DNA from: Ruficoccus amylovorans
Lineage (GTDB): Bacteria; Verrucomicrobiota; Verrucomicrobiia; Opitutales; Cerasicoccaceae
Assembly: GCF_014230085.1 (NCBI RefSeq)
Contig: NZ_JACHVB010000012.1
Span: forward strand, 186,001-250,000
Reading direction: 5' to 3'
Length of the DNA: 64,000 nucleotides
Positions 2,724 through 47,893 of this stretch are shown here, one piece after another; the first letter of the stretch is position 1; every line of letters starts with the position of its first letter. Made by a program: the position numbers and the translations under genes. The notes under the pieces are model-generated. The model was given only the letters and a program-made list of their open reading frames with translations. It ran no database searches and was not told the origin of the DNA.

Positions 2724-2796
2724 GTCGTCGGAGCTATTGAACGGTAGCTGCTGCTCAGGTTCGCTGTGTCTGCGGGCCATCTTTGAGAAAAAGAGA

Positions 2797-2998
2797 TTAA
2801 CCACAAAGGGCACAAAGCGCACAGAGAGGGAAAATATTTCCCGCGGAGCCACGCGAAGGAACGCGAAGTTTTTAAAAGCAATATTTCTTCGCGCCTCTTC
2901 GCGTGGCTTCGCGGGCAGCTTCTTTCCCCTTTTTTAATGCTCTTGTTGGGCACAGCGCATGGCCCCATCTTCCCTCTCTGTGTCTTTGTGGTTAAGTA
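2797..2998. repeat. Nested palindromic intergenic element
   Basis: Two nested inverted repeats fill much of the 403-bp gap between the SET gene and the 5S gene. Outer arms: a left arm near 2797-2832 reading ttaaccacaaagggcacaaa, and its complement near 2971-2998 (ctctgtgtctttgtggttaa). Inner arms: 2840-2868 (cccgcggagccacgcgaagg) against 2887-2915 (cttcgcgtggcttcgcggg). The outer arm belongs to the GGCACAAAG/CACAGAG arm type that flanks the GxxExxY genes at 34 and 35.5 kb. No coding sequence lies inside. Confidence 0.75.
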
Positions 2999-14023: not shown

Positions 14024-14132
14024 CTCACACGGAGGCATAGAGGCACGGAGGTTTCTTTCCGGACCCCACACAGGAACTCGGCCACGCGGCCTATCCTTCT
14101 CAAAGCCTTTGCGTCTTTGTGCCTTTGTGGTT
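14024..14132. repeat. Gene-less palindromic element of the GxxExxY-arm type
   Basis: Left arm 14024-14052 begins ctcacacggaggcatagagg; right arm 14102-14132 reads gcgtctttgtgcctttgtgg. These are the same two arm types that bracket the GxxExxY genes at 34.0 and 35.5 kb, here separated by only about 50 nt with no reading frame. It lies between the decarboxylase operon terminator and the convergent yqgE. Confidence 0.65.
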
Positions 14133-17440: not shown

Positions 17441-17565
17441 TCAGGGATTACGGCTTTCAGTTTCACTGAAAGCCGTAATCCCTGACACGATGAGCAGCAT
17501 CGAAAGTGCAGGGTCCGGCTGGACCAGCAATCTGCCTGCCGCGGGTCCGGGGCGCGCAGCCCCGG
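17441..17565 (-). repeat. Multi-hairpin intergenic element, copy D (inverted orientation)
   Basis: Hairpins in reverse order to the copies at 23 kb: a 45-nt hairpin 17441-17485 (stem TCAGGGATTACGGCTTTCAG), a GATG/CATC hairpin 17488-17502, the linker cgaaagtgca (complement of tgcactttcg in the 23-kb copies), a GGTCC/GGACC hairpin near 17512-17525, and a GGGGC/GCCCC hairpin 17547-17565. A 26-nt stretch here (17511-17536) recurs as its exact complement near 50660-50685. Confidence 0.75.
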
Positions 17566-20684: not shown

Positions 20685-20685
20685 G

Positions 20686-20720
20686 TTTGAGAGTTTGAGC
20701 GTTTAAAGGTTTGAGAGTTG
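20686..20720. repeat. Short GTTTGA-type tandem repeat
   Basis: Imperfect direct repeats of GTTTGAGA/GTTTAAAG-like units. Inverted-sense units (aaactttcaaac, ctcttaaactttc) recur at 20949-20990, just before hisI, so the pair flanks the palindromic element at 20741-20902. The same octamer family is present at 25951-25996 and 62820-62855. Confidence 0.55.
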
Positions 20721-20740
20721 GTCAAAGGGCTTTGTCACTG

Positions 20741-20902
20741 TTTAGAGCGTTTCAAATAAAGTCGTAGCCGTCACAAAATGGCCGAATGGCTAAATGATTA
20801 AATGGTTAATTGTTATTTCCTACGTTCGGAATCCAACAATTAACAATTAGCCATTTAGCTATTCAAAGTTTGTGGCTACAGTAATTTTTGAAACGCTCTA
20901 AA
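20741..20902. mobile_element. About 160-bp palindromic element, family 2, copy a
   Basis: Perfect 16-bp terminal inverted repeats TTTAGAGCGTTTCAAA (20741-20756) and its complement (20887-20902). The interior is a second imperfect palindrome of gaatggctaaatgattaaat and ccaacaattaacaattagcc. No gene inside. Related copies lie at about 23611-23768, 39751-39909 and 47740-47893, with a fragment at 30629-30685. Confidence 0.8.
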
Positions 20903-20995
20903 GTGGTTTATTGCGATGAGGTTGAGGCTTCAATCTTGGCAGCCCCGCTTAAAACTCTTAAACTTTCAAACTCTTAAACTTTCAAACGTATATTT

Positions 20996-21578: not shown

Positions 21579-23048
21579 ATGTCTGACCGCTCATCATCCT
21601 CTGTCCAGATCGGCTCCTGGATTGCCGCCATCGTCCTGTTCGTCTTTGGCGGTATTTTCGCCAGCACCGGCTTCAAGCTGCTTGCCAGCCTGCTCCGTGA
21701 GGAATCGGGCACGCCCAATTTTATCGGCGGTCTCGTGGGGGGTGTTTTTCTGCTTTTCGGGGTGGGGGCCATCGTCGGCGGGATACGTGTGATCGCGGCG
21801 GCCCGGCAAGGCTCACGGCTGGCCCGGAAGTACCCGGACCAGCCCTGGATGCACAACAAGACCTGGGCCTCCGGACGGATCAAGGACAGCAACCTGGTCG
21901 GCGCGCTGTTCATGATCCCCTTCGCCCTGTTCTGGAACGGCGTTTCGTGGACCGTGATCCTCGTTATGCTCAGTAGTGGAAATCTCGGCGAGAACCCGGC
22001 GCTGCTGATCTTCTTGCTGTTCCCCCTGATTGGTCTCGGGCTGGCCTGGGCGGCGGTTTACCAGATCCTGCGCTGGCGCAAATACGGCACGTCGGTCTTT
22101 GAACTGGCGGAGATCCCCGGCGTCATAGGCGGAAATCTCGGCGGGCTGATCCTGACGCGGGTCCATGTCCGCCATCAGGGTGGCTTTACGCTGACCCTGC
22201 GCAACGTCCACCAGTGGACCAGTGGCTCGGGCAAGAACCGCCGCACCCACACCGAAACGCTCTGGGAGTCGCGGCAGGTGCTCGATCAGGAAGCGATGCC
22301 CGACGACCCGACCCGCAGCGCCTTGCCGGTGCTTTTCTTCATCCCCTACACCTGCCATCCGACCCAGCGCCGCCGGGACGGCTCGCAGGACTACTGGGAG
22401 CTGACTGCCACGGCCCGCGCGCCCGGCCTCGATTACAAGGCGTCTTTCCGCGTCCCGGTCTTCCACACCAAAGACAGCGACCCCAATGCGCAGCAGCCGA
22501 GCGCGACCACCTCGGCCACGGGCGGCACTGGCGGCTCCGCTACGCCGTTACCCGAACTGGGCGCGATTGCCGGGTTGACGGTGCGTCCGGACCTTTCCGG
22601 TGCCGAGGTACTGGAGTTCAAACCCATGCGGCACCTGGCCCTGCTGTTTTTCCCGTTGCTGATCGGCGGCGGGATGGTGGCCTTCGCGTATTTCGCGTGG
22701 AACAGCGGCATGCCCAAGCTTTTTCCCGTCGTCTTTCTGCTTTTCGGGCTGTTTGTCTGCTACGGGGTTGGCTCGTCGCTGCTGAGCTACGTCCGCGTGT
22801 ACCGCTACCCGGACCGGCTGGAGGTCCGCAGTAGGCGCTTTGGGATGAAAAAAACCAGCACGCTCCCCCGCAAGACGATCACCCGGATCGAGGTCAAGCA
22901 GGCCATGTCCTCCGGCAACAGCGTCTTCTATAATGCCCTCATCCACACCGCCGACGGGCAGACGGTGACCGTCCCGACCCTGATCCGTGGCCGCCGTGAG
23001 GCCGAAGCCTTCGCCGCTCACCTGGAAAAGCCTATGCTCGTTCGCTAG
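21579..23048 (+). CDS. Multi-pass membrane protein of unknown function (DUF3592-like)
   Basis: 489 residues with about six membrane helices: two near the N-terminus (IGSWIAAIVLFVFGGIFAS and a second near 50-70), two near 105-165, and two near 350-400. Between the helix pairs is a soluble beta domain of roughly 180 residues, with CHPTQRRRDGSQDYWELTATA, of the kind seen in DUF3592 proteins. The C-terminal part resembles a PH-like domain (RLEVRSRRFGMKKTSTLPRKTI). Function unknown. The TAG stop lies inside the CTAG boundary of the downstream element. Confidence 0.75.
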   Translation: MSDRSSSSVQIGSWIAAIVLFVFGGIFASTGFKLLASLLREESGTPNFIGGLVGGVFLLFGVGAIVGGIRVIAAARQGSRLARKYPDQPWMHNKTWASGRIKDSNLVGALFMIPFALFWNGVSWTVILVMLSSGNLGENPALLIFLLFPLIGLGLAWAAVYQILRWRKYGTSVFELAEIPGVIGGNLGGLILTRVHVRHQGGFTLTLRNVHQWTSGSGKNRRTHTETLWESRQVLDQEAMPDDPTRSALPVLFFIPYTCHPTQRRRDGSQDYWELTATARAPGLDYKASFRVPVFHTKDSDPNAQQPSATTSATGGTGGSATPLPELGAIAGLTVRPDLSGAEVLEFKPMRHLALLFFPLLIGGGMVAFAYFAWNSGMPKLFPVVFLLFGLFVCYGVGSSLLSYVRVYRYPDRLEVRSRRFGMKKTSTLPRKTITRIEVKQAMSSGNSVFYNALIHTADGQTVTVPTLIRGRREAEAFAAHLEKPMLVR

Positions 23049-23257
23049 TGTGCCGTGAGCTAAGTTTGCTGCATATTTTTTTGGGGGCTATGCGCCCCCA
23101 AACCCCGCAGCAGGCATAGCCTGCACTTTCGATGCTTGCAGCATCGCGTCTGGGATTACGGCCTTCAGCGGCGCTGAAGGCCGTAATCCCAGAGGAGCAT
23201 CCAAACTGAGTTTCACCCCCAAAACTTATGCGATGAACTTAGCTCACAGCACACTAG
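23045..23257. mobile_element. CTAG-bounded multi-hairpin element, copy B
   Basis: 213 bp between CTAG sites at 23045 and 23254, with inverted ends ctagtgtgccgtgagctaag and its near-complement. Inside are four hairpins: 23081-23101 (GGGGGC/GCCCCC), 23110-23124 (GCAGGC/GCCTGC), 23130-23146 (CGATGC/GCATCG) and a 45-nt hairpin 23149-23193 with a stem of about 21 bp starting TCTGGGATTACGGCC. The left CTAG contains the stop codon of the preceding gene. Confidence 0.85.
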
Positions 23258-23407
23258 TGTCCCGTTAGCTTAGTTCCTGATAAAAATATTTTCACCGCAG
23301 AGGCGCAAAGACGCAGAGCGACCTCTGTATCCACGAAGTTTTTTGTGCTTCTTGTGCCTTTTTGTGGCCATTAACATTTGTTAAGAACTTAGCTAACACG
23401 ACACTAG
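23254..23407. mobile_element. CTAG-bounded MITE-like element, second copy
   Basis: 154 bp, near identical to 14884-15036, again bounded by CTAG at both sides. It is joined without extra bases to the elements on each side, sharing a CTAG with both. No gene inside. Confidence 0.88.
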
Positions 23408-23613
23408 TGTGCGGTTACCGAAGTTTGCTGCATAATTTTTGGGGGCTATGCGCCCCCAAACCCCGCAGCAGGCATAGCCTGCACTTTCGATGCTGCCGCA
23501 TCGCGTCAGGGATTGTTGCTTTTAGCTTGGCTAAAAGCAACAATCCCTGAGGAACATCCAAACTGGGTTGCACCCCAAAACTTATGCGAGGAACTTAGCT
23601 CACGGCACACTAG
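23404..23613. mobile_element. CTAG-bounded multi-hairpin element, copy C
   Basis: 210 bp between CTAG at 23404 and 23610. Hairpins: 23438-23460, 23468-23482, 23488-23503 and a 45-nt hairpin 23506-23550. The last has the stem TCAGGGATTGTTGCTTTTAG, which differs in most of its central positions from copy B but is matched by complementary changes on the other arm. Confidence 0.85.
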
Positions 23614-23768: not shown

Positions 23769-23904
23769 GCAAGCTGTGTGGCGAGTTCTTCCATAGAGAC
23801 TCAAAGGGGCATTTGCGGTTCGTCTTGTCGAGTGGTGGCGGCGTTTCCTTCGCGTGGTTTCGCGGCCTACAGATCGCCCGTGCGATTATCGCGTTTTAAT
23901 GCAC

Positions 23905-32123: not shown

Positions 32124-33356
32124 ATGCCCTGGTACCTGTATTTAGCGCTCAAGCAGCTTTTTCCCTCGGGGCGCTTCGTGTCGCTGTTCTGCGTCGTCTC
32201 GGTCATCGGCGTCACCCTCGGGGTGATGGTCCTGCTGATCGTGCAGAGCGTCATGAACGGCTTTGGCAACGAGATCCGCGACAAGCTCTCCGATACCGAC
32301 GGTCATGTCCGCATCCAGGGTGGGGGGATCATTTATCAGACCTGGCCGCTGGTCGAGATGGCCGAGCAGATCGAGGGCGTGGAGACCGTCGCCCCCTACG
32401 CCGAGGGTATGGTTATGATGATGCACCGGAACATCCCGGCCTTCCCTTACGTGCTGGGCGTGGATGTGCTCGGGGACGAGCCGATCATCCCCTTCGACCG
32501 TTATCTGCGCGGCGACAGCCGCTACGAGGACCTCGACGACGAGACGGTTTTCCTCGGGGCCGGGCTGGCCGCCTCCATCGGCGCTTACAAGGGCTCAACA
32601 CTTGAGGTTTACTCGCCCCTGATGCTGGAAAAGCTCAAGCGCGACGAGGTGCTGCTTCCCCGCGAACTGACCGTGGCGGGCATCTTCGATACCGGCTATA
32701 ACAAGATCGACGCCAACACCATGATCGTGACCCTGCGGCTGATGCAGGAGCTTTACGGCCTCGGGGATGGTGCGCACGGTGTCTCCCTGCGCCTGAAAGA
32801 CCGCAACCAGGCCGACGCCGTGGCCAAGCAGCTCAACGACCAGCTCCAGCCCCCCTACCGGGCCGTGACCTGGCTCGACCGCAACAGCGACATTCTCTTT
32901 GTCCTCTCGCTGGAAAAGGCCGTCATGTCGTTTATCATCCTGTTTATCATCCTGGTGGCTTCGTTCTCCATCGCCAGCTCGCTCTTTACCGCCGTGGTGC
33001 GCAAGACCCGCGAGATCGGGCTCATCGGGGCGATGGGCGGGCGTTCCCGGCAGATGGCCGCCGTGTTCTGCTTCCAGGGCTTCATCATCGGGGTGGTTGG
33101 CTCCTTGCTCGGGGTTGGGTTGGCGTTGCTGGCGCTTCACTACCGTGTGCAGATCGTGGACACCTTTGCCCGCGCGACCAACAGCGCCGACACGCTGGTG
33201 CGTTTTTACCAGTTCCGCGTGCTGCCCGTGCATTACGAGGCGCGGGACTTCATCCTCATCATCACCTTCGCCATCATCGTCTCGACCGTGGCCGGGCTGC
33301 TGCCCGCCTGGCGTGCCGCCCGTCTCAAACCCGCCGACGCCCTCCGCAATGAGTGA
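32124..33356 (+). CDS. Lipoprotein-releasing ABC transporter permease (LolC/LolE)
   Basis: 410 residues, four membrane helices with a large periplasmic domain between the first and second (FtsX/MacB_PCD layout). The N-terminal YLALKQLFPSGRFVSLFCVVSVIGVTLGVMVL and FIILFIILVASFSIASSLF are typical of LolC/E, as is REIGLIGAMGGRSRQMAAVF. The C-terminus PAWRAARLKPADALRNE matches the family end. It extracts mature lipoproteins from the inner membrane. A TTGACA at 32090-32095 lies upstream with a weak -10. Overlaps lolD by 8 nt. Confidence 0.92.
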   Translation: MPWYLYLALKQLFPSGRFVSLFCVVSVIGVTLGVMVLLIVQSVMNGFGNEIRDKLSDTDGHVRIQGGGIIYQTWPLVEMAEQIEGVETVAPYAEGMVMMMHRNIPAFPYVLGVDVLGDEPIIPFDRYLRGDSRYEDLDDETVFLGAGLAASIGAYKGSTLEVYSPLMLEKLKRDEVLLPRELTVAGIFDTGYNKIDANTMIVTLRLMQELYGLGDGAHGVSLRLKDRNQADAVAKQLNDQLQPPYRAVTWLDRNSDILFVLSLEKAVMSFIILFIILVASFSIASSLFTAVVRKTREIGLIGAMGGRSRQMAAVFCFQGFIIGVVGSLLGVGLALLALHYRVQIVDTFARATNSADTLVRFYQFRVLPVHYEARDFILIITFAIIVSTVAGLLPAWRAARLKPADALRNE

Positions 33357-34059
33357 CCCCGTTCTCCAGACCACCGGCCTGACCAAGGTCTTCAAGGGCC
33401 CGGACGCCGACATCGAAGTCCTCTCCGGCGTCGAACTGGCCGTCCACGCGGGCGAAAGTGTGAGCATCCGCGGCGAGTCCGGCGCGGGCAAGACCACGCT
33501 CCTTTACATCCTCTCGACGCTGGAGCTGCCCGACGCGGGCGAGGTCCGCTGGCAGGGCCAGAACGTCCTGAAAAAGTCCGCCGACTGGCGGGCGCTGCGT
33601 CGCACGACCTTCATGGGGCTGGTCTTCCAGTCCTACTACCTGATCCCGGAGCTCAACGCGCTGGAAAACGTCCTCATGGCGGCGCGGCTGGCGGGCAAGC
33701 TCGACTCCGCCAAAAAAGAACGCGCCCGTGACCTGCTGGCGCAGGTGGGGCTCTCCGAACGCCTCCGCCACATGCCCGGCCAGCTCTCTGGCGGGGAGCG
33801 TCAGCGCGTGGCCCTGGCCCGCGCCCTCCTGAATCGCCCCGCGCTGGTCCTGGCCGACGAGCCGACCGGCAACCTCGACGAGCACACCGGGGCCGAGGTC
33901 ATGGACATTTTTATAAAAATGTGCGCCGAGGAACAGGTCGCCCTCTGCCTGGTCACGCACAACCCGGCCTTTGCCGCCCGCACCAGCCGTCAGCTCTACA
34001 TGCGCGGCGGAGCGATGGAGGAGATTGGCTCACACGAAGGCACAGAGGCACAAAGATGA
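33349..34059 (+). CDS. lolD: Lipoprotein-releasing ABC transporter ATP-binding protein (LolD)
   Basis: 236 residues. Walker A GESGAGKTT, Q-loop VFQSYYLIPELNALENVL, signature LSGGERQRVALARAL, Walker B ALVLADEPTGNLD and switch His in LVTHN are all present. The start overlaps the permease gene by 8 nt. The final ten residues (GSHEGTEAQR) are encoded by the left arm of the GxxExxY element, and the stop TGA overlaps the ATG of the GxxExxY gene; the original C-terminus may have been replaced. Confidence 0.93.
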   Translation: MSDPVLQTTGLTKVFKGPDADIEVLSGVELAVHAGESVSIRGESGAGKTTLLYILSTLELPDAGEVRWQGQNVLKKSADWRALRRTTFMGLVFQSYYLIPELNALENVLMAARLAGKLDSAKKERARDLLAQVGLSERLRHMPGQLSGGERQRVALARALLNRPALVLADEPTGNLDEHTGAEVMDIFIKMCAEEQVALCLVTHNPAFAARTSRQLYMRGGAMEEIGSHEGTEAQR

Positions 34060-34472
34060 CAGAAAACGAGATTGGCCGGGAAGTTGTCGATGCGGCGATT
34101 GAACTGCACCGGGAACTTGGGCCAGGCTTGCTGGAGAGTGTCTATGAATCTGTGCTGGCCCGGCTTCTGGCTGAGCGAGGCATCGAAGTTGAGCGCCAGG
34201 TGTCCATTCCGGTTACTTTCAGGAATATGCGCTTCGAAGAAGGATTTCGGGCGGACATTGTTGCTGGCAGGAAAGTTATCCTTGAACTGAAATCAGTGGA
34301 GGCCATTACTCGCGCCCATCAAAAACAATTGTTAACCTACTTGCGTTTGACCGGATTGAAGCTTGGGTTCGTGTTGAACTTTGGCGAGGAGTTGATGAAG
34401 AATGGCATCAAGCGTATCATTAACGGCGATCTTTCCGCCTGATACCTTTGTGTCTCTGTGCCTCCGTGTGAG
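34028..34472. mobile_element. Palindromic element carrying GxxExxY gene, copy 1
   Basis: Inverted arms of about 27 nt: left 34028-34055 (ctcacacgaaggcacagagg, then caaag) and right 34446-34472 (its near-complement, ending gcctccgtgtgag). They enclose exactly one gene, whose ATG is directly attached to the left arm and whose stop is 3 nt before the right arm. It lies between lolD and the Gfo/Idh gene. Confidence 0.82.
34056..34442 (+). CDS. GxxExxY family protein (predicted PD-(D/E)XK fold), copy 1
   Basis: 128 residues. The name-giving motif is GLLESVY (Gly24, Glu27, Tyr30). Further on, FRADIVAGRKVILELKS holds Asp67 and Glu77-x-Lys79, the spacing of a PD-(D/E)XK nuclease core. The family (TIGR04256/PDDEXK_3) has no established function. 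It is about three quarters identical to copy 2 at 35503. The start codon overlaps the lolD stop (ATGA). The gene is enclosed by inverted arms, and such genes may be cargo or drivers of that element; this is inference. Confidence 0.9.
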   Translation: MTENEIGREVVDAAIELHRELGPGLLESVYESVLARLLAERGIEVERQVSIPVTFRNMRFEEGFRADIVAGRKVILELKSVEAITRAHQKQLLTYLRLTGLKLGFVLNFGEELMKNGIKRIINGDLSA

Positions 34473-34522
34473 TGAAAAAATTCATTCCCAAAATGCTCCC
34501 GGTCCGCTAAGCTCTTTTGTTT

Positions 34523-35467
34523 ATGGCAGATAAAAATCCCTTGCGATGCGGGGTGGCCGGGGTCGGATACCTCGGGCAGCACCACGCGCGGATTTACAAC
34601 CAGCTCCCCGGCTGCGAGTTGGCCGGTATTTACGACGCCGACCCCAAGCGCGCCCGCGAGATCGCCAAACAGCACGGCGGGGCGCACGTCTGTGAATCCC
34701 TGGAGGAGTTGGGCGAGCGTTGCGAAGCGGTCAGTGTGGCCGTGCCGACGGACCGCCACACCGAGGTCGCGCTGCCGCTGCTGGAGAAGGGCTGCCACCT
34801 GCTGATTGAGAAGCCCATCTGCCCCACGCTGGAGGAGGCCGAGCAGATCACCGAGGCCGCCGCCTCGCGCGGGCTGCTGGTGCAGGTCGGCCATATCGAG
34901 CACTATAATCCGGTCATGGCCTTTCTGGAAAAGCACGTCAAAGACCCGCGCTTCATCACGGCGGACCGGCTGGCGGAGTTCAAGATCCGGGGCGTGGAGG
35001 TCAGCGTCGTGCTCGACCTGATGATTCACGACATTGGCGTCATCCTGCAACTGGTGAAATCGCCGCTGGTGCGGGTGGACTCGGTCGGGGTCAACGTCCT
35101 GACCAAGAGCGAGGACATCGCCAACGCCCGCCTGACCTTTGAGAACGGCTGCGTCGCCAACATCAATACCAGCCGCGTCAGCCGCAAGCCGGTGCGCGAG
35201 ATCCGCGTCTTCCAGCCCAACGCCTACCTCTCGCTCAACTTCGCCGAGCAGAAGGGCCACCTCATCCGCAAGGGCAAACTCGGCCTGAGCAAGAAGGACA
35301 TCCCCATCGAAAAGGGCGAGCCCCTCCTGCTGGAGCTGGCCTCCTTTACCGACGCCGTGCGCAAGCACACCGCCCCGAAAGTCGATGCCGTCCTCGGCCG
35401 CAGCGCGCTTGAGGTCGCCCTCAAGATCACCCAGCAAATCCGCGAGGCGAACGAACGGCGCGGGTAG
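34523..35467 (+). CDS. Gfo/Idh/MocA family oxidoreductase, probably GnnA-like
   Basis: 314 residues from ATG 34523. The N-terminal Rossmann fold has GVAGVGYLGQHHARIY, followed by EKPICPTLEEAE (the family EKP motif) and VGHIEHYNPVM. Its place just before lpxB is typical of GnnA, the UDP-GlcNAc 3-dehydrogenase that with the aminotransferase GnnB makes the 3-amino precursor for lipid A with amide-linked chains. Substrate assignment rests on context and general resemblance; no gnnB is in the window. The chain ends NERRG before the second GxxExxY element. Confidence 0.82.
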   Translation: MADKNPLRCGVAGVGYLGQHHARIYNQLPGCELAGIYDADPKRAREIAKQHGGAHVCESLEELGERCEAVSVAVPTDRHTEVALPLLEKGCHLLIEKPICPTLEEAEQITEAAASRGLLVQVGHIEHYNPVMAFLEKHVKDPRFITADRLAEFKIRGVEVSVVLDLMIHDIGVILQLVKSPLVRVDSVGVNVLTKSEDIANARLTFENGCVANINTSRVSRKPVREIRVFQPNAYLSLNFAEQKGHLIRKGKLGLSKKDIPIEKGEPLLLELASFTDAVRKHTAPKVDAVLGRSALEVALKITQQIREANERRG

Positions 35468-35474
35468 TCTTTTT

Positions 35475-35922
35475 GCTCACACGGAGGCACAGAGGCACAG
35501 AGATGGAGGAGAATGCGATTGGGGACATTGTGGTCCAGGCGGCGATCGAGCTTCACCGTGAACTGGGGCCAGGGCTTTTGGAATCTGTCTATGAATCGGT
35601 GTTGGCCACTTTGCTTGAGCAACGGGGCTTAGCGGTTGAGCGACAGGTAGCGGTCCCCGTTGTATTCAGGGAGATGCGTTTTGAAGAAGGATTTCGCGCA
35701 GACTTGATCGTTGAAAACAAAGTCATTCTCGAACTTAAATCCGTGGAGGCAATCTCCCGCGCCCACAACAAGCAATTGCTCACCTATCTAAGACTCACCG
35801 GTCTCAAGCTGGGCTACCTTTTAAACTTCGGAGACGAACTCATGAAAACCGGCATCAGCCGCGTCATCAATGGGCAACTGCAATCCCAGTAAAACTCCGT
35901 GCCCCCGTGCCTCCGTGTGAGC
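35475..35922. mobile_element. Palindromic element carrying GxxExxY gene, copy 2
   Basis: Left arm 35475-35502 (gctcacacggaggcacagag followed by gcacagag) and right arm 35895-35922 (ctccgtgcccccgtgcctcc, then gtgtgagc). Same organisation as copy 1: the gene's ATG touches the left arm and its stop is 2 nt from the right arm. It separates the Gfo/Idh gene from lpxB. Confidence 0.82.
35503..35892 (+). CDS. GxxExxY family protein (predicted PD-(D/E)XK fold), copy 2
   Basis: 129 residues, with the same landmarks as copy 1: GLLESVY and FRADLIVENKVILELKS, then the invariant block HNKQLLTYLRLTGLKLGYLLNFG. Differences from copy 1 are mostly conservative and spread along the chain, so both copies appear to be kept under selection. 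No Shine-Dalgarno sequence other than the AGAG of the arm precedes the ATG. Confidence 0.9.
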   Translation: MEENAIGDIVVQAAIELHRELGPGLLESVYESVLATLLEQRGLAVERQVAVPVVFREMRFEEGFRADLIVENKVILELKSVEAISRAHNKQLLTYLRLTGLKLGYLLNFGDELMKTGISRVINGQLQSQ

Positions 35923-35943: not shown

Positions 35944-37137
35944 ATGACCTTGCCCACACCTACCGCTCGGCCCGACCTGCTCATCATCGCCGGTGAGCAC
36001 TCCGGCGACCAGCACGCGGCCCGCCTTCTGCGTGAGGCGCGGGCGGCGCAGCCGTCGTTGGGCGTGTGCGCGATCGGCGGCGAGGAACTGGAGAAGGCCG
36101 GAGCGCAGCTTTTGTTCGACCTGACCCAGCATTCCGTCGTGGGGCTGTTTGAGGTTTTGAAGAACTACGGCTTTTTCAAAAACCTCTTCGAGGCCACGGT
36201 GACGTGGATCAAAGAGCACCGGCCGCGCGCGGTCTGTTTCGTCGATTACCCGGGCTTCAACCTCCGCCTGGCCGAGCGCCTGCACAAGGAGGGCATCAGC
36301 GTGAAGGGCGGGGGAGAAACGCGCCTGCTCTACTACATCAGCCCGCAAATCTGGGCCTGGAAAGGGCACCGGCGCTTCAAGATGGCCAAGCTGCTCGACG
36401 CTCTGGCCGTGATTTTTCCCTTCGAGGTCAAGTGTTACGATGACACCGACCTGCCCGTGACTTACGTGGGCCACCCCTTCACGGGGGAGGACTACCACCT
36501 GCCGCTGCGCTATGCGCCGGACGGCCCGCTGCTGCTGCTGCCCGGCAGTCGAAAGACACCCGTGCGGCGGATTTTCCCGCTCATGCTGCGGGCGCTGGAG
36601 CGGCGTTACGCTGCCACGCGCGCGGGCCGCGGTGAACCGTCAGCGGGGCAGAGGAGTGTTTCCCCGGACGAGCGGGCGGTGGCGATTTTTCCCAGCCCGG
36701 CCATTGCCGGGGTCCTGGAGGAGCAACTGGCGGCTTTCCCGTCACTGGCGGATCGCGTCAGCCTGCGCCCCGGCGGCGAGGTGGCGGAAGCCGCCGCCGT
36801 CCTGACCAGTTCGGGCACGATGTCGCTGAACTGCGCCTTGGCAGCGATTCCGGGGGCGATTGTTTACCGGGCCAACCCGCTGACGTACTTCATCGGGCGG
36901 CGTGTGGTGAGCATTGACCGGCTCGGCATCGCCAACATCCTCCTTGGGCGCGATATTTACCCCGAGTACCTGCAAGGCGCAGCCAACCCCGCCGCACTCG
37001 GGCGCGAACTCGACCTGTGCCTCGGCGATCCGGCCCGGCTGGAGGCGACGCGCGAGGCCGCCCGCGAACTGCTCCACCTGCTCGGTGAGGAGCGCGAAAT
37101 GTCCCCGGCCCAATGGCTGCTTAAGGAACTGACCTGA
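35944..37137 (+). CDS. lpxB: Lipid-A-disaccharide synthase
   Basis: 397 residues, normal for LpxB (about 380). Glycosyltransferase family 19; joins lipid X and UDP-2,3-diacylglucosamine to form the lipid A disaccharide. Motifs: IIAGEHSGDQHAARLLRE (family GE.SGD), VGLFEVLKNY, VDYPGFNLRLAERLH, YYISPQIWAWKGHRRFKMAK, VTYVGHPF, LLLLPGSRKTPVRRIFPLM and SSGTMSLNCALAAIPGAIVYR. There is a small extra stretch near residues 220-240 (ARGEPSAGQRSVSPDERAV). Shows that the cell makes lipopolysaccharide. Confidence 0.95.
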   Translation: MTLPTPTARPDLLIIAGEHSGDQHAARLLREARAAQPSLGVCAIGGEELEKAGAQLLFDLTQHSVVGLFEVLKNYGFFKNLFEATVTWIKEHRPRAVCFVDYPGFNLRLAERLHKEGISVKGGGETRLLYYISPQIWAWKGHRRFKMAKLLDALAVIFPFEVKCYDDTDLPVTYVGHPFTGEDYHLPLRYAPDGPLLLLPGSRKTPVRRIFPLMLRALERRYAATRAGRGEPSAGQRSVSPDERAVAIFPSPAIAGVLEEQLAAFPSLADRVSLRPGGEVAEAAAVLTSSGTMSLNCALAAIPGAIVYRANPLTYFIGRRVVSIDRLGIANILLGRDIYPEYLQGAANPAALGRELDLCLGDPARLEATREAARELLHLLGEEREMSPAQWLLKELT

Positions 37138-39750: not shown

Positions 39751-39909
39751 GGTCGCTTTAAAAAATACTGTAGTCACAATCGTTAAATGGTTAAATGGCC
39801 AATTGTTAATTGTTGGATGCGGAACGGGGAAAACAACAATTAGCCATTTTAACCATTCAGCCATTCGGCCTTTTTGTGGCGACTACGACTTTATTTAAGC
39901 CGCTCTAAA
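39751..39909. mobile_element. Palindromic element, family 2, copy c (inverted)
   Basis: Starts at the base after the proS stop codon (ggtcgctttaaaaaa) and ends gactttatttaagccgctctaaa. The interior has ttaaatggttaaatggccaa and ccattttaaccattcagcca. Orientation is opposite to copy a. It is followed by an inverted repeat AACAGGAAG (39908-39916) / CTTCCTGTT (39970-39978). Confidence 0.75.
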
Positions 39910-47739: not shown

Positions 47740-47893
47740 CAGGAGCTTGAATAAAGTCCTAGCCGCCACAAAAAGCCCGAATGGCTAAATGGTTAAAATG
47801 GCTAATTGTTGCTTTCTACGTTTCGCATCCAACAATTAACAATTGGCCATTTAACCATTTAACTATGGTGGTTCAGTATTTTTTTAACCGCCC
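47740..47893. mobile_element. Palindromic element, family 2, copy d
   Basis: Begins right after the sialate esterase stop (gtcaggagcttgaataaagt) and ends at about ttttttaaccgcccta. The interior has gaatggctaaatggttaaaa and its partner ccatttaaccatttaact. No gene inside; it lies between convergent genes. Confidence 0.7.

Follow-up and report, generated by a model that had tools for sequence, protein, structure and literature searches.

Among the systems described so far, those closest to the locus reported here are REPIN-RAYT systems, the intervening sequences (IVS) of 23S rRNA, Cas4-like PD-(D/E)XK nucleases, and MITEs and insertion sequences. The repeats of REPIN-RAYT systems end in a GTAG or CGTC tag, and a QxxxY motif is a feature of RecB/Cas4-like nucleases. 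PF05635 is the family of the S23p ORF that 23S rRNA intervening sequences contain. According to the excerpts of PMC4990558, the Coxiella IVS measures 428-444 nt and has a 28-bp stem and an S23p ORF, and the same excerpts quote an older suggestion that 23S rRNA intervening sequences are mobile. In the excerpted literature, GxxExxY is mentioned once for a gene next to a reverse transcriptase and once in a virus gene table; no description of GxxExxY function was found in the open-access literature searched, and a search of that literature for arms around GxxExxY (PDDEXK_3) genes also returned no description, which is no proof of absence.

Two gene-plus-arm units in the window

The window, that is, the whole 64-kb stretch of DNA that was analysed, is part of contig C12 of the 4.5-Mb genome of Ruficoccus amylovorans (G000), and its relevant features are collected in Table 1. 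An earlier note on this DNA had described two GxxExxY genes, each lying between inverted arms of about 27 nt with the ATG touching the left arm and the stop 2-3 nt from the right arm, and had proposed that gene and arms behave as one unit. These observations held: the arms are 27 nt long in unit 1 and 28 nt in unit 2, the left arm of unit 1 is directly abutted by the ATG, the gap between stop and right arm is 3 nt in unit 1 and 2 nt in unit 2, and the layout recurs both within this genome and in other genomes (see below). A detail missed by the earlier note is that the lolD frame continues through the left arm of unit 1, so that its TGA and the GxxExxY ATG overlap. Inverted repeats scoring at least 34 number 15 in the window, including both GxxExxY units, and each of five block-shuffled windows gave none.

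Table 1. Coordinates of the two units, neighbouring genes and arms without a gene in the window
Feature	Position	Strand	Remarks
L006-family compact gene-less arm pair	2840-2915	.	18-nt loop (L305)
Window-family arm without gene	14025-14046	+	One mismatch to pattern (G000:C12:200025-200046)
L006-family arm without listed partner	23847-23866	-	Two mismatches (G000:C12:209847-209866)
lolC/E-like gene	32124-33356		Name read from translation
lolD	ATG at 33349, stop 34057-34059		Name read from translation
Unit 1 left arm	34029-34055	+	Also encodes new C-terminus of lolD
GxxExxY gene 1	34056-34442	+	128 aa, PD-(D/E)XK family PF13366
Unit 1 right arm	34446-34472	-	25/27 complementary to left arm
Gfo/Idh gene	34523-35467		Name read from translation
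Unit 2 left arm	35475-35502	+	28 nt
GxxExxY gene 2	35503-35892	+	129 aa, modelled PD-(D/E)XK core
Unit 2 right arm	35895-35922	-	25/28 complementary to left arm
lpxB	35944-37137		Name read from translation

Other repeats are present in the window. Hairpins with AATGGTTAA-type arms and loops of 20-27 nt lie at 20741-20902, 39778-39865 and 47786-47861, and near-perfect palindromes of 21-22 bp with loops of 1-3 nt lie at 17441-17485, 23149-23193 and 23506-23550, two or three of them having a common GGGATTACGG-like start. Overlapping inverted repeats with a CTAGTGTGC end, which belong to a different repeat family, occupy 23045-23613.

The GxxExxY protein

Both proteins match PF13366 (E 5e-40 for gene 1 and 2.4e-41 for gene 2), the only family match at E 0.001 in the profile search, and both are full-length matches to TIGR04256 as well; the curated cut-offs were passed for TIGR04256 (134.6 and 140 bits against 35) and for PF13366 (136.9 and 141.2 against 22). 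The fold check proposed for the nuclease core gave a high-confidence model of gene 2 (pLDDT 94.6) that consists of a bare PD-(D/E)XK core. Residues D67, E77 and K79 are invariant across 38 sequences, and Q91 and Y95 are invariant in the seven GxxExxY proteins of G000. The core fold of the PD-(D/E)XK superfamily, with its D and ExK residues, is modelled with high confidence, and GxxExxY is a putative nuclease. Foldseek returned no match to the model at E 0.001 or better, and the best match to a solved relative by sequence reached only E 0.037. The top match of a second structural aligner was SSO0001 (Z 9.3, 101 residues, 4.5 A), a Cas4, followed by restriction-endonuclease-like chains (Z 8.4 and 7.9); Hjc resolvases scored Z near 6-7, a range where chance arrangements occur.

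A role in defence was considered and set aside, PADLOC giving only weak matches to Cas4 (E 0.0026 and 0.0066) and PDC-M36A and PHROGs one weak CRISPR-associated family. Carriage by phages or plasmids was likewise rejected, protein 2 occurring in none of 50,697 phage records and in seven of 72,556 plasmid records. All eight GxxExxY pairs compared had dN/dS values of 0.05-0.19, with dS near or above 1 in three of them; judged from these ratios, the gene is under strong purifying selection, which would also be compatible with a host function.

Occurrence of the arm-bounded layout

Seven GxxExxY genes were identified in G000, all seven with inverted arms near start and stop. These arms represent six arm families, one shared by the two window genes and five that differ from it. 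GxxExxY was present in 14 of the 19 genomes searched, where a strong arm pair surrounded 52 of the 64 full-length unique genes (three partial genes were dropped from 67, and one G017 gene, in region L131, was left out) compared to four of 192 mismatched flank pairs and one of 44 neighbouring ORFs. Named loci from several phyla gave 40 arm-bounded genes out of 74; this set comprises the best 80 of 568 loci found with one GPGLLESVY-type pattern, minus six with short flanks, and is not a random sample. In its controls, no arm pair was found around 72 neighbouring ORFs and 32 of 222 mismatched flanks scored, the latter, in our reading, because a CGCAAAG-like theme is common to arms of different loci. 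A strong arm pair was absent at 12 of the 64 genes in the 14 genomes and at 34 of the 74 named genes (from the best 80 of 568 loci). The score cut-off of 28 and the CRCNRADR theme were picked after the arms had been seen, and later comparisons used slightly wider flanks for the relatives, which yields 54 units instead of 52. Of 87 upstream neighbours, 73 run in the direction of the unit, as do 55 of 83 downstream neighbours, which makes expression of GxxExxY by read-through likely.

The layout extends to a second gene family. Among the relatives, 15 of 29 PF05635 genes were arm-bounded (30 loci among the matches listed, one of which was dropped) compared to one of 87 mismatched pairs, and their arm sequences are other than those of GxxExxY. 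Ninety arm pairs filled by an ORF were found in L078-L249, 70 holding GxxExxY, 15 holding PF05635-like ORFs (13 genes, the label resting on a reading of the ORFs) and five holding other ORFs; the scan is no unbiased survey, since the majority of the loci had been retrieved on account of one family or the other. In Flavobacterium, a PF05635-like ORF between AGTGTTCAGT-type arms (L212:4304-4817) lies upstream of a GxxExxY gene, at a distance of about 1.2 kb, in a locus that was not selected for that family. In the window, a gene-less GTTTGAGAGTT-type arm pair at 20685-20987 resembles, by eye, the arms of PF05635 units in G000 and G002 (L149, L148) and is possibly a gene-less copy of the PF05635 arm family.

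Anatomy and abundance of the arms

Twenty L006-type arm pairs were fetched from the G000 sites of the L006 search; 17 are compact, with 9-29 nt between the arms, and three hold other material. Across the 17 compact pairs (136 comparisons) the arms were 0.86 alike and the loops 0.33, the value of shuffled loops, and in the one orthologous pair compared the loops were 0.69 alike. The conserved block spans about 32 nt in the L006 type and 29 nt in the window type, and for both types no conservation was detected outside the block or in the loop. L006-type neighbours within 500 bp of each other in G000 face inward in 12 cases, outward in none and along the same strand in one. The arms have an internal period, with a best lag of 8-10 in 36 of 42 cases among the relatives and of 8-9 in 34 of 37 named loci. 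Arm similarity follows protein identity (Spearman 0.37 over 1357 unit pairs at different sites, a value reached by none of 1000 shuffles). The abundant repeated part is the arm of about 30 nt and not the whole unit.

Gene-less arms are widespread, and their number follows the cognate gene for the L006 type but not for the window or L004 types. The L006 arm type has 49 sites in G000, 112 in G002, a single one in G001 and none in the other 16 of the 19 genomes, compared to 1, 1 and 0 for the reversed pattern (range 0-1). The only close relative of the L006 gene among the 64 genes is found in G002, at the same site and 91% identical, and of the 19 genomes only G000 and G002, in which the L006 gene was found, have numerous L006 arms. 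The window arm type was counted at 35 sites in G000, at 11 (G001), 10 and 4 in three congeners and at one site each in two of the other 50 genomes, with a single site for the reversed pattern across all 54 genomes. G001 thus has 11 window-type arms and no matching clade gene was found in it, its two GxxExxY genes belonging elsewhere. The L004 arm type occurs 94, 3, 39 and 16 times in G000-G003 and 6 to 42 times in six other genomes of the family (reversed controls 0-6, with 6 in one genome), including G002, G003, G005 and G008, in which no L004-clade gene was found, as judged by identity and not from a tree. Window- and L004-type arms in genomes where no clade gene was found argue against a strict tie between arms and genes; these genomes may have lost the gene. 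Outside units, the arms of the 54 units were met again at a density of 13.2 per Mb in loci from the genome of origin, compared to 2.3 per Mb in loci from other genomes (raw matches 18 and 35; with the arms reversed, 0 and 1). With three mismatches allowed, a 15-base arm pattern was uninformative, giving 117 and 164 sites compared to 93 and 144 when reversed.

A MITE-like element moved by another, unseen transposase, with GxxExxY as a passenger between the arms, would account for gene-less copies outnumbering gene-bearing ones, for arms in genomes that yielded no clade gene and for PF05635 in the same layout. However, it is a rather unlikely explanation, as arm sequence tracks the GxxExxY lineage, L006 arms track the presence of the gene, loops are not copied and no target duplication is seen. 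Direct repeats of at least 5 nt flanked one of 20 and two of 54 arm pairs (mismatched fractions 0.045 and 0.021). An earlier delimitation with three fewer arm bases (17 pairs) had given a mean of 2.47 compared to 1.81 and two 7-nt matches; with three more bases counted as arm, one of 20 pairs reaches a direct repeat of 5 nt. A classical transposon with target duplication was rejected, there being no sign of such duplication at the arm pairs. The exact insertion edges cannot be read because the empty sites are too diverged (about 75-90% identity).

Pairing in DNA or RNA

Size and layout like those of the Coxiella IVS (PMC4990558), arm-bounded PF05635 genes within the same genomes and the co-directional upstream gene would all suit an IVS-like RNA element, in which the arms would pair in the transcript and RNase III would be predicted to excise the unit, but this is improbable. 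On the gene strand, A:C and G:U mismatches between arms numbered 47 and 38, and 38 and 39, respectively; A:C being about as frequent as G:U, there is no G:U excess, which argues against selection for an mRNA stem. In compact copies, moreover, a left arm resembles its partner on the right (0.844) no more than it resembles the right arms of other copies (0.852), and selection on an RNA stem as the main cause is unsupported on both counts. The wide occurrence of arms without the gene also counts against an RNA element, as does the Rfam search, which gave no match at either unit and one tRNA in the whole window.

Differences between congeners and genera

The earlier note placed the two units as insertions at two separate junctions of the lol-Gfo/Idh-lpxB cluster, and both junctions proved polymorphic within the genus. 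At the lolD-Gfo/Idh junction, unit 1 is present in G000 and G002 and absent from G001; the DNA upstream of this junction in G003 is unlike lolD, and G003 is thus not counted. At the Gfo/Idh-lpxB junction, unit 2 is present in G000 and G003, and a different, gene-less arm pair is found in G001 and G002. A solo arm of G000 lies within about 184 nt, where the corresponding stretch of G002 measures about 30 nt, and two units 94% identical lie about 2.3 kb apart in G016.

Two other sites have longer histories. At the L005 site, the flanks of G000, G001 and G002 are 90-96% alike in amino acids, and the three GxxExxY units that they enclose are 51-58% alike; G005 has a unit at this site to which that of G000 is 78% alike, and G003 retains a remnant with a right arm. 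The L004-site unit is common to G000, G004, G007 and G009, across genera; G001 and G002 have no unit there and a terminator-like hairpin instead, and G003 has a gene-less arm pair. These patterns indicate that units can be old residents and can be lost or replaced. The L005 junction of G001 (L267, G001:C1:1932900-1933800) carries another GxxExxY gene with different arms, that is, a unit replaced by another. Arm pairs may also be nested: at window 2787-2990 and at L273:710-917, both in G000, one pair lies inside the pair of another family, and the two structures are 85% identical over about 204 nt. The stretch enclosed by the outer arms appears by eye to be inverted between L273:695-905 (G000) and L287 (G002), at orthologous places.

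The terminator-like hairpin in place of the L004-site unit, the position of units behind genes, and purifying selection together with long residence are what would be expected if the arms were intergenic hairpins of use to the host, as terminators or mRNA stabilisers, next to a housekeeping nuclease. This explanation is nevertheless very improbable: near-identical arms specific to one family number in the tens in some congeners and are missing from others, sister species have arms of different families at one and the same junction, and arm mismatches show no RNA-type pattern.

A proposed mechanism and its implications

We lean towards the reading, drawn by analogy, that the units are resident copies of a REPIN/RAYT-like system with an unrelated PD-(D/E)XK enzyme. 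The multiplying part would be the arm of about 30 nt, built of 8-10 nt repeats and located in intergenic DNA, copies of which would often form pairs that face inward around an arbitrary loop. In each arm family, one or a few pairs would enclose the gene of the cognate nuclease, GxxExxY, usually placed co-directionally behind a host gene and probably expressed by read-through. The protein would bind its own repeats and cut the arm pair, the substrate perhaps being a single-strand hairpin or a fork; repair or re-insertion would then place arm copies elsewhere. The most direct basis for movement of arms by GxxExxY is the distribution of L006 arms and gene, from which we infer it. Window- and L004-type arms in genomes that yielded no clade gene, old single-site units and the lack of target duplication count against such movement.

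The idea of a mobile palindrome with a single cargo gene, put forward in the earlier note, survives in part. The recurrent unit and the polymorphic junctions agree with it, but the element is not simply a hopping palindrome: some units keep one junction across genera, the abundant part is the arm of about 30 nt, loops are unrelated, arms differ between GxxExxY lineages, and PF05635 occupies the same layout. The likeness to REP/RAYT systems that it had drawn is strengthened by arm copies that track the gene in one family (L006).

More tentatively, the units may represent a REPIN-like class of elements in several phyla, in which a reaction based on a minimal Cas4-like nuclease would copy the arms, and not the loop, into intergenic sites, with S23p/IVS as a sister class of the same architecture. 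If this were true, two long-unexplained gene families (GxxExxY and the S23p/IVS ORF) would share one explanation. GxxExxY is widespread, and linking it to dispersed repeats of its own opens its role to direct testing; the link would also extend the REPIN-RAYT principle to an unrelated nuclease and provide the old idea of mobile 23S rRNA intervening sequences with an intergenic relative for comparison.

Comparison with known systems

The GxxExxY protein is like the Cas4 and lambda-exonuclease-like PD-(D/E)XK nucleases in its top structural match and its weak Cas4 profile matches, and it differs from them in being a bare core of 128-129 aa to which other nucleases come close in Z. Short inverted ends, gene-less copies and insertion polymorphism are shared with MITEs and insertion sequences; however, no target duplication was detected and the interiors are not common to copies. 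The units resemble the 23S rRNA IVS, as described in excerpts of PMC4990558, in their size of about 430-450 nt, one small ORF and terminal inverted repeats of about 28 nt, but they encode another protein family, are intergenic and outside rRNA at the loci seen, and lack the sign of RNA-stem selection.

The closest parallel is with REPIN-RAYT systems. As described in excerpts of PMC3116915, these also consist of inverted doublets of a short intergenic repeat with singlets beside doublets, have conserved ends around a spacer that is less conserved (71 bp in one REPIN group compared to 67-87 bp here), and place the cognate gene near or within its own repeats. Here, in contrast, the enzyme is of the PD-(D/E)XK type (PF13366), RAYT being a tyrosine (Y1) transposase, the gene is enclosed by one arm pair, and the arms are tandem repeats of 8-10 nt; a GTAG or CGTC tag within 12 nt of the arms was found in three of 40 outer flanks, no excess over the shuffled fraction of 0.09. 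Since the cognate enzyme is not a tyrosine transposase, the GxxExxY system is not filed as REPIN-RAYT. By analogy, the best reading is that it would work like a REPIN-RAYT system, not as a member of that family.
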